A stretch of DNA of 34,658 bases from Clostridia bacterium (GTDB lineage Bacteria > Bacillota > Clostridia > Oscillospirales > Acutalibacteraceae), in contig JAFVSK010000016.1 of the NCBI GenBank assembly GCA_017503785.1, forward strand, positions 1 through 34,658, written 5' to 3'. Position numbers and translations under genes: made by a program. Position 1 is the stretch's first letter. Every line of letters starts with the position of its first letter. The notes beneath the pieces are model-generated. The model worked only from the letters and a program-made list of their open reading frames with translations, searched no databases and was not told the DNA's origin. Below, piece after piece: positions 33,571 to 34,658 of this stretch.

Positions 33571-33589
33571 AAAAAAAGACTCCGTGTTA
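33571..33589 (+). repeat. Left arm of a split bidirectional terminator
   Basis: AAAAAAAGACTCCGTGTTA lies seven bases after the stop codon of the 714-residue gene. It is the reverse complement of 34553-34571 at 18 of 19 positions. Joined, the two would form one terminator stem with A and T runs, suited to two converging genes. Confidence 0.75.
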
Positions 33590-33626
33590 AGAGTCGTACT
33601 CTAAAGGACAGTAAAACGAAGTACGA

Positions 33627-33665
33627 AAACACCCATAGTTTTTAAAACTGTGGGTGTTTTTATTA
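33627..33665 (+). terminator. Terminator upstream of the EamA gene
   Basis: AAAACACCCA (33627-33636) pairs with TGGGTGTTTT (33651-33660), with an inner AGTTT/AAACT stem, then more T. It would stop read-through from the upstream operon. Confidence 0.85.
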
Positions 33666-33741
33666 TTCTCTTTATTTGTTAGTCAAGTCGTGCTATAATA
33701 TAACCAACCGATAAATAAGAATTTAGTGGAGGTAATATTGT

Positions 33742-34155
33742 ATGTGGTTTGTACTCGCATTACTGTCTGCAATATTTGCAGCACTTACCTCTATACTGGC
33801 GAAGGTCGGCATAGAAGGTGTCAACTCAAATCTTGCAACAGCAATAAGAACCGTTGTGGTAGTTGTTATGGCTTGGGGAATGGTTTTCCTCACGAATGCA
33901 CAAAATGGAATTGCAGAAATTAGTAAACGGAGTTGGCTGTTTCTCGTTCTATCGGGATTGGCAACGGGTGTCTCATGGCTTTGCTATTATAAGGCATTAC
34001 AGTTGGGTGATGCATCCAAAGTTGTGCCAATTGACAAGTTGAGTGTTGTAATCACATTGATTTTGGCGTTCGTGTTTTTACACGAACAGTTTACAACGAA
34101 ATCCTTGATAGGTTGTATACTTATTGGAATTGGAACTATGGTAATGGTTCTTTAA
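33742..34155 (+). CDS. Half-size EamA/DMT family transporter
   Basis: A 137-residue membrane protein equal to one EamA repeat, with four to five hydrophobic helices. SAIFAALTSILAKVGIEGVNSNLATAIRT at the start and YYKALQLGDASKVVPIDKLSVVITLILAFVFLHE near the end are typical of the drug/metabolite transporter superfamily. Full-size members have two such repeats, so this one probably works as a dimer. The ATG at 33742 follows GGAGGT. Its codons are AT-rich, unlike the surrounding GC-rich genes, which fits foreign origin. TATAAT at 33694-33699 is a likely -10 box. The substrate is unknown. Confidence 0.9.
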   Translation: MWFVLALLSAIFAALTSILAKVGIEGVNSNLATAIRTVVVVVMAWGMVFLTNAQNGIAEISKRSWLFLVLSGLATGVSWLCYYKALQLGDASKVVPIDKLSVVITLILAFVFLHEQFTTKSLIGCILIGIGTMVMVL

Positions 34156-34356
34156 TTTCTTTATCAAACCGTTAGATAAATTCCAATTTATCGAACAGAT
34201 GATATTTGTTTGTAAAAGGGTTTTAGGTTTTCCTAACAAGTAGAAAATGATATATATTTTCCCTGCTTGTTACGGTATGCGACAACTATTAAACGGATGT
34301 GTAGAATTTCTGCACATCCGTTTTACTATCTCAAAAAGTATTGTATATAGTGTTAT
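34156..34356. other. AT-rich non-coding stretch before the hairpin array
   Basis: About 200 bp with no credible gene. It includes a TGTGTAGAA-like stretch and a GGATGTG...CACATCCG hairpin (about 34295-34321, followed by TTTTA) that may end the EamA transcript. Confidence 0.5.
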
Positions 34357-34552
34357 TGTGAGACAAGTCTCACAGTGTTATTTTGCCTATCGGCAAAGTG
34401 ATATTAAAACCTAATGGTTTTAGTGATATTTTATTCGCCTATAAAACTCGCAAAGCGAATAACACTCGGCTTTTAGCCGAATATAACTGCGAAGCAATAT
34501 AACTCGCCAAAGGCGAATAAAACTGGCGTTGTATCCTTACGGGTACAACGCC
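34357..34552. repeat. Array of about eight small hairpins with mirror-image linkers
   Basis: Hairpins in order: TGTGAGAC/GTCTCACA (34357-34374), TTTGCC/GGCAAA (34382-34397), AAAACC/GGTTTT (34406-34421), TCGC/GCGA (34448-34458, extendable to TTATTCGC/GCGAATAA), TCGGCT/AGCCGA (34466-34480), TGC/GCA (34488-34496), TCGCC/GGCGA (34504-34516) and GGCGTTGTA/TACAACGCC (34525-34552). Stem sequences differ, but linkers are alike: GTGATATT in the first part and ATATAACT or a close variant in the second. The second type is nearly the reverse complement of the first, so the array is roughly symmetric about 34435. Confidence 0.75.
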
Positions 34553-34571
34553 TAACACGGAGCCTTTTTTT
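34553..34571 (-). repeat. Right arm of the split bidirectional terminator
   Basis: TAACACGGAGCCTTTTTTT on the plus strand, complementary to 33571-33589 with one mismatch. It lies 13 bases beyond the stop codon of the minus-strand GH16-like gene. Confidence 0.75.
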
Positions 34572-34584
34572 ATCTCTAAAATTA

Positions 34585-34658
34585 TCAGGGGCGCTGCCAC
34601 ACACGGATCCAGTCGATCTCCAACGGATTGCACGCAGCACCGCTGAGAATGAGTGTTT
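34585..34658 (-). CDS. 3' end of a second GH16-like gene (partial)
   Basis: Only the last 23 codons and the TGA stop (34585-34587) are inside the window. The frame ends NPLEIDWIRVWQRP, which matches the closing strand of GH16 domains and closely resembles the VDWVRVWE end of the lipoprotein at 27518-28624. The rest of the gene lies beyond the right edge. This suggests that the whole 27-35 kb region is a polysaccharide-degradation neighbourhood. Confidence 0.7.
   Translation of the reverse strand, partial: TLILSGAACNPLEIDWIRVWQRP

Follow-up and report, generated by a model that had tools for sequence, protein, structure and literature searches.

The window analyzed here is a stretch of 34,658 nucleotides from a Clostridia bacterium (assembly GCA_017503785.1, contig JAFVSK010000016.1, forward strand), and near its right end it carries a 963-bp cassette (33590 to 34552, plus strand; bounds taken from the family ends and the target duplication described below) inserted between two converging protein genes, in their terminator. 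The left arm of this split host terminator (33571 to 33589; an A-run and GACTCCGTGTTA) and the right arm (34553 to 34571; TAACACGGAGCC and a T-run), both unstranded features, match as reverse complements at 18 of their 19 positions, the A-run and the T-run being on the outer sides, as a first-pass annotation of this DNA had described. The imperfect inverted repeat at the arms reaches 38 nt with 82% identity. Copies of a 2-bp target duplication, TA, lie within the left arm (33588 to 33589) and the right arm (34553 to 34554), and the reconstructed target loop is TTAA. The 963 bp between the arms are AT-rich, as had been noted, with a GC content of 37%, compared with 59% in the flanks.

The cassette opens with the left end AGAGTCGTACTCTAAAGGACAG, which includes the family anchor TAAAGGACAG (33590 to 33611, plus strand) and is common to the family. 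This end is followed by a terminator-like hairpin from the terminator scan, i.e., a cassette-borne intrinsic terminator (33625 to 33661, plus strand), by an extended -10 element, TGCTATAAT (33691 to 33699, plus strand; seen by eye and absent from the scan output), and by the cargo gene (33742 to 34155, plus strand), which encodes a single-domain EamA transporter of 137 aa (PF00892; E 3e-23). Relatives of this protein that are 69 to 79% identical occur in the genomes G026, G020, and G017. To the right of the gene lie an apparent inverted copy of the left-end interior (34223 to 34330, minus strand; based on inverted matches, with a wider likeness by eye), which includes a hairpin at 34291 to 34323, and an array of short hairpins (34342 to 34525, unstranded), whose 9-nt spacers of the AGTGATATT type have a direct orientation through the left half and an inverted one through the right half. 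The array is closed by the 28-nt right-end hairpin GGCGTTGTATCCTTACGGGTACAACGCC (34525 to 34552, unstranded); counting this hairpin, the array region reaches 34552, and the RNA fold of 34326 to 34557 has a z score of -9.4. The terminator scan also reported two minus-strand hairpins (34518 to 34502 and 34484 to 34462), and a weak match to the Gut-1 RNA (RF01706) covers 34454 to 34525 on the minus strand (E 8e-6; 39 bits, with a cut-off of 50). The ORF list contains no ORF of recombinase size within the cassette, nor does the cassette carry a PF05635 gene, a gene found in other elements of the family (see below).

The promoter, the terminator, the hairpin array, and the lack of a recombinase had all been pointed out in the first-pass annotation. 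Two of its descriptions need adjustment. The EamA gene, called half-size, is indeed a single-domain gene, but it spans one complete EamA domain, and the term "half-size" does not have to imply a broken gene. Similarly, of the two edges described as hairpins, the right one is a constant feature of the family, but the left one is merely a weak inverted copy of it. The last part of the window (33709 to 34658, the end of contig C27) overlaps positions 77560 to 78509 of contig C34 over 950 bp, inside and beside the cassette, with 2 mismatches; we therefore took the two as one locus split by the assembly and not as two copies.

In the following, G000 denotes the genome of the window and G001 to G008 its congeners; C numbers denote contigs or copies and L numbers denote loci. 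The arms had been proposed to form one ordinary terminator serving both converging genes, and a search for an empty site in related genomes had been recommended. Such a site exists in G007, where the same left gene (71% identical across 1149 bp) and the same right flank (95% identical across 42 bp) enclose an ordinary intact terminator, AAAAAAGACCGCCTCACCGAGGCGGTCTTTTTT, and no cassette. G008 has this left gene as well, followed there by a different intact terminator. The EamA gene is not always present at this place, since G001 to G008 yielded no match to it at E 1e-12. A second empty site was found in G007 at the locus corresponding to copy C59, where flanks of about 1.5 kb each (69% and 74% identical) adjoin the intact terminator AAAAAAAGCCGACGGGGAATAACCCCGTCGGCTTTT, which has the outer stem GCCGACG in common with the split one.

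Six further places in G000 carry the array, with 80 to 85% identity (the C34 match being counted as the window locus). Split arms belonging to different terminators enclose copies C30a (AAAACCGCTGCCC and GGGCAGCGGTTTT), C30b (AAAAACCGCC and GGCGGTTTTT), C62 (AAAAAGCACCCAACC and GGTTGGGTGCTTTTT), and C59 (AAAAAAGCCGACGA and TCGTCGGCTTTTTT); a search for the left arms of array copies C30c and C30d found none. By eye, the gene preceding C30a is followed by intact terminators with other stems in G001, G002, G004, G005, and G008, and the gene preceding C62 is followed by intact terminators in G004, G005, G007, and G008. Using the left-end pattern together with the known right end, we identified a further element of 2.96 kb without an array, C59b (G000:C59:94035-97018; L047 and L082), which brings the occupied terminators in G000 to six including the window, i.e., at least five beyond it. 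C59b is located in the terminator loop behind a partial tRNA-Val copy, and there is an intact tRNA-Val terminator at a distance of 160 bp. When the flanks of C59b are joined at the duplicated TA, the sequence of this intact terminator results, except for the lengths of the A- and T-runs.

Array or end matches were detected in 20 of 59 relatives, which belong to several families of the order (G005 is included by a 30-bp end match only). A first set, composed of the window and 60 loci, provided 58 candidate right ends, of which 49 have a T-run by the rule of the script used for that set; the ends of L081, L086, L087, and L099 finish in other hairpins. Left arms were sought within 2.5 kb for the 53 ends with upstream DNA, and arm scores of at least 13 and at least 14 were reached by 15 and 12 of them, respectively, compared with 0.8% and 0.2% of 3009 mismatched pairs. 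A right-end pattern scan of a collection of 84,980 species genomes matched 104 stretches; 80 of the 104 genome loci and one viral contig make up the scan set (81 loci), which holds 82 distinct right ends (81 genomic and one viral). All 80 genome loci are titled as Clostridia or Oscillospiraceae metagenome-assembled genomes, and the titles that name a sample refer to the cecum, colon, or rectum of herbivores, the others naming none. A T-run lies no more than 32 nt from the right end in 80 of the 82 cases (33% of 1640 random positions), and a WW dinucleotide begins 81 of them (TA, 40; TT, 23; AT, 15; AA, 3), the exception being a single TG. Among the 66 usable cases, arm scores of at least 10, 12, and 14 were found in 38, 25, and 10, compared with 22%, 1.8%, and none of 330 controls. 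The controls of the first set exclude chance as the source of the arm matches. The same cassette ends, which the first-pass annotation had suggested looking for at other terminators, are present at many. The stems of the end hairpins vary widely among subfamilies yet stay paired; because pairing was a search criterion, only the variety of the sequences is informative.

The elements fall into a short class of 322 to 333 bp (13 of 34 sized elements) and a longer class that bears cargo; L205, L213, L219, and L236, in which the best arm does not adjoin the end, were left out of the sizing. A 9.6-kb viral contig (L292; IMGVR_UViG_3300029305_004744) also holds a 325-bp element flanked by split terminator arms, suggesting that phages or prophages may carry the family. 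At L089 (G047:C33), the outer terminator arms are 1.5 kb apart around an apparent second left end, and a nested insertion is possible at this locus.

Target duplication was assessed in the scan elements with an arm score of at least 9 and a left anchor, together with five named first-set loci; identical right flanks were counted once, and the four loci left out of the sizing were omitted here as well. In 30 of 33 elements, the dinucleotide located 15 nt before the left anchor is identical to the one at the right end, this offset being the best of 22 tried, with no other near it. A stricter version, from which L198 and L251 (false anchors) were also dropped, gave agreement in 29 of 31 elements, whereas 36% would be expected (p 2e-11, without correction for the number of offsets tried), with L206 and L215 failing. 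A longer duplication was considered and rejected: three bases agree in 39% of cases (11% expected) and four in 24% (4% expected), compared with 91% of the 33 elements for two bases (36% expected). When the flanks of the 29 agreeing elements were joined, the resulting folds had energies of -10.7 to -26.5 kcal/mol; the reconstructed target loop is a tetraloop in 17 of the 29, the duplicated pair lies no more than 0.5 nt from the hairpin axis in 23, and a tetraloop is combined with zero offset in 14. The junction comparisons and reconstructed hairpins show that 2 bp of the target (TA, TT, AT, or AA) are duplicated in or close to the center of a short loop, usually a tetraloop. Such a duplication at or near the loop center demonstrates an insertion event, and the folds with their central duplicated pair place this event at or near the tip of the loop. 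The targets have a hairpin and a T-run in common and not a sequence.

The elements also bring terminators of their own. A terminator facing the left gene is present within the first 160 nt of 25 of 31 elements (1% of single-base shuffles), and one facing the right gene is present within the last 160 nt of 21 of 31 (2% of shuffles). In the terminator scans, many elements are thus shown to bear terminator-like hairpins toward both flanking genes, and these would render the splitting of the host terminator harmless. Splitting may be tolerated because the cassette supplies replacements, and the ends of operons would for this reason be safe landing sites.

The cargo includes genes for EamA proteins, a HAD hydrolase, an ion channel, TetR, GNAT, and membrane and unknown proteins, and C59b carries a gene for a BnzB-like anti-phage protein (PADLOC E 2e-47). 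The same cargo occurs in different terminators and genomes at L214 and L261 (ion channel and PF05635) and at L252 and L254 (a 128-aa membrane protein). A Pfam scan of 18 proteins encoded in elements or beside arrays revealed no transposase, recombinase, reverse transcriptase, or integrase among them, and four were assigned to PF05635 ("23S rRNA-intervening sequence protein"). One of these four, from L045, lies beside an array for which a left arm was sought and not found. PF05635 genes lie inside split terminators in L073 and L096. No other gene recurs as often in the elements; PF05635 is present in 7 of the 16 scan elements longer than 600 bp (identified by sequence likeness and motif; one, in L253, is shortened). 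It lies on the left side of the array and is oriented away from the array, and in L264 (721 bp) it is the sole ORF of at least 70 aa outside the last 230 bp. Its motif precedes the array at 10 of the 82 right ends. PF05635 genes occur in 19 of the 20 relatives with element matches and in 11 of the 39 others (p 8e-7, uncorrected for kinship or genome completeness).

Around 53 PF05635 gene records, in which three genes are counted twice (L073/L112, L096/L109, and L107/L132), split-terminator arms with a score of at least 13 were found in 10, compared with 2.3% of 884 controls, several of these matches being short tandem repeats or intact terminators and not split ones. Inspection by eye of 20 PF05635 surroundings showed that at least seven (L107, L113, L115, L133, L134, L137, and L145) adjoin other arrays or heptamer repeats and then an intact terminator; the spacers of these other arrays include ATGATG/CATCAT, ATGAAG/CTTCAT, and GATGAAATC/GATTTCATC, and several of the intact terminators apparently belong to tRNA genes. 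Some terminator tips at L107, L133, L134, L137, L113, and L115 resemble TTTGTC-GGTA-GACAAA on different stems. At L111, L135, and L140, a PF05635 gene and an array of the cassette family abut an intact tRNA terminator at the position of the end hairpin, an arrangement that perhaps reflects another insertion mode. The presence of PF05635 genes beside intact terminators indicates that the association of the protein with loop insertion is not universal. At L145 (G056:C44), near-identical terminators, each preceded by the same repeats, lie on both sides of the PF05635 gene, a layout that suggests duplication of an array with its terminator.

We consider it likely that the cassette of the window belongs, as one of many copies, to a mobile family whose insertion sites are the hairpin tips of intrinsic terminators and whose mechanism is linked to PF05635. 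The observation made in the first-pass annotation and the core of its interpretation, a cassette inserted at a terminator loop, are upheld by the empty sites and by the 2-bp duplication at or near the loop center, and the anatomy of the insertion can be regarded as established as far as sequence allows. The further proposal of a hairpin-directed mechanism acting in trans would be the natural reading of these data, because the targets are alike in structure and not in sequence and because many elements are too short to hold a gene. In such a mechanism, a protein made in trans would recognize the end hairpin and array of the element as well as the target hairpin, probably as extruded cruciforms or single strands, and a host or partner nuclease would make a 2-nt staggered cut at the hairpin tip. 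The PF05635 protein may be the factor supplied by the family itself, and its role in mobility is a well-supported hypothesis in view of its recurrence and distribution. PF05635 proteins are four-helix bundles; we know of no catalytic site in them, which counts against PF05635 as the driver. Other points against the explanation are the detection of left arms with a score of at least 12 in only 25 of the 66 usable cases, the T-run at only 49 of the 58 first-set ends, the PF05635 genes beside intact terminators, and the lack of such a gene in the window cassette.

Alternatively, the cassettes may be non-autonomous copies, such as miniature inverted-repeat transposable elements (MITEs) or mobile insertion cassettes (MICs), of a DDE-type transposon whose transposase is encoded elsewhere and prefers palindromes, with PF05635 as a frequent passenger. 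Imperfect inverted ends, a fixed 2-bp duplication, and two classes, one of about 325 bp and one larger and cargo-bearing, are typical of elements of this kind, and the cassettes share with MITEs and MICs their short length, multiple copies, optional passengers, and lack of a transposase. PF05635 is, moreover, not the only recurrent gene: the ion channel and one of the membrane proteins were each seen twice. On the other hand, the cassettes differ from MITEs and MICs in targeting terminator hairpin tips whatever their sequence and in having their own terminators at both ends, and the 18 scanned proteins include no transposase, recombinase, or reverse transcriptase. Among the elements read, no autonomous transposon with matching ends was recognized. 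Only 40 of the 82 cases have TA as the duplicated dinucleotide, so the strict TA families (IS630 and Tc1/mariner), in which the duplication is always TA, do not fit. PF05635, moreover, keeps a fixed place beside the array. We regard this origin as possible, although rather unlikely.

Insertion through RNA, in which PF05635 as a relative of Avd would act with a reverse transcriptase to copy the structured element RNA into terminator hairpins, appears improbable. The arrays are highly structured as RNA, the targets are transcribed hairpins, and Avd, a component of diversity-generating retroelements, is described as homologous to PF05635 in the part of the source available to us (PMC10053308). 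However, RVT_1 was detected in only 3 of the 20 element genomes versus 12 of the 39 others (p 0.22), no reverse transcriptase is among the 18 scanned proteins, and the combination of a reverse transcriptase with an Avd-like protein that defines diversity-generating retroelements does not characterize the element genomes. Group IIC introns, which are ribozymes with a reverse transcriptase, also choose terminator hairpins by structure; they insert beside the hairpin, whereas the cassettes enter its loop, and Rfam searches of the window end and 15 loci gave no match to a group II intron family. Movement of hairpin-ended elements as single strands by a Y1 (HUH) transposase of the IS200/IS605 or RAYT kind is very improbable. 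Although the subterminal hairpins and arrays resemble IS200/IS605 ends and REP/BIME arrays, Y1_Tnp is found in 8 of the 20 element genomes versus 17 of the 39 others (p 1.0, weak partial matches included), and the Y1 transposase expected for IS200/IS605 or RAYT-REP systems is thus absent from most element genomes. IS200/IS605 elements insert after a fixed tetranucleotide without target duplication, unlike the cassettes, which duplicate their target. Neither reverse transcriptases nor Y1 transposases, considered as drivers, are associated with the element genomes. Finally, the arms could be unrelated terminators, or the inverted repeat could have arisen after the gene was in place. Terminators are short and G+C rich, so some chance arm matches are expected, and 0.6 to 2% of control pairs indeed reach scores of 12 to 13; this explanation is nevertheless refuted, its probability being negligible, by the target duplication, by the empty sites with their intact terminators, and by the empty paralog of the tRNA terminator.

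Like integron cassettes, the elements can combine a gene with a structured end site and would be moved in trans, but they have a duplicated WW dinucleotide at their junctions instead of G/TTRRRY. An attC reading of the right junction, GCCTAAC, which by eye is like RYYYAAC, was rejected: the AAC belongs to the host arm, and the dinucleotide at the junction is not constant.

A strong parallel, by analogy, exists between PF05635 in elements that enter terminator tetraloops and the intervening sequences (IVSs) of 23S rRNA genes. The available part of one source (PMC4990558) describes IVSs that replaced the tetraloops of helices 9, 25, and 45, a Coxiella IVS with complementary ends and an S23p gene, and a mobility that is proposed and suspected and as yet unproven. 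The two kinds of insertion have in common a tetraloop site, complementary ends, and the ability to encode PF05635 (S23p/IVP). The cassettes differ in their location in terminators and not in rRNA, in their array, 2-bp duplication, and cargo, and in that 72 of the 82 right ends lack an upstream PF05635 motif. They are not members of the 23S rRNA IVSs, because the defining site is an rRNA gene and the window cassette, for instance, lies between two protein genes. In the rRNA setting, IVSs are cut out of the transcript by RNase III. More tentatively, with a chance that we would put somewhat below even, terminator-loop cassettes and 23S rRNA IVSs may be two habitats of one class of mobile DNA that recognizes hairpin tips, with PF05635 and the arrays forming a transposase-free, loop-directed machinery that also spreads cargo such as the BnzB-like anti-phage gene.

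We found no earlier description of terminator-loop cassettes in the literature searched (open-licence PMC papers). To our knowledge, no mobile element is known that targets the tips of intrinsic terminators irrespective of their sequence and always duplicates 2 bp. If PF05635 drives insertion, the origin and movement of rRNA intervening sequences become testable on many insertions with empty sites. In addition, the family exemplifies how an element may land safely at the ends of operons, and DNA insertion directed by structure could serve as a tool.

A place is also gained by the orphan RNA family Gut-1, which seems, from the positions of its matches, to be part of the hairpin arrays. Seven matches above the gathering score were obtained in 6 of 15 loci (L043:18115-18185, L043:9627-9699, L140:743-813, L098:6904-6980, L135:2877-2948, L046:2409-2479, and L096:7247-7323), all in the right half of the arrays. 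Gut-1 is listed as an sRNA gene, whereas here it covers the right half of an array at the end of a mobile element. Covariation was considered for the long stem of the array and set aside, as by eye its spacer pairs are not strictly complementary in two copies. In L135 and L140, the array with the Gut-1 match lies beside a tRNA terminator.
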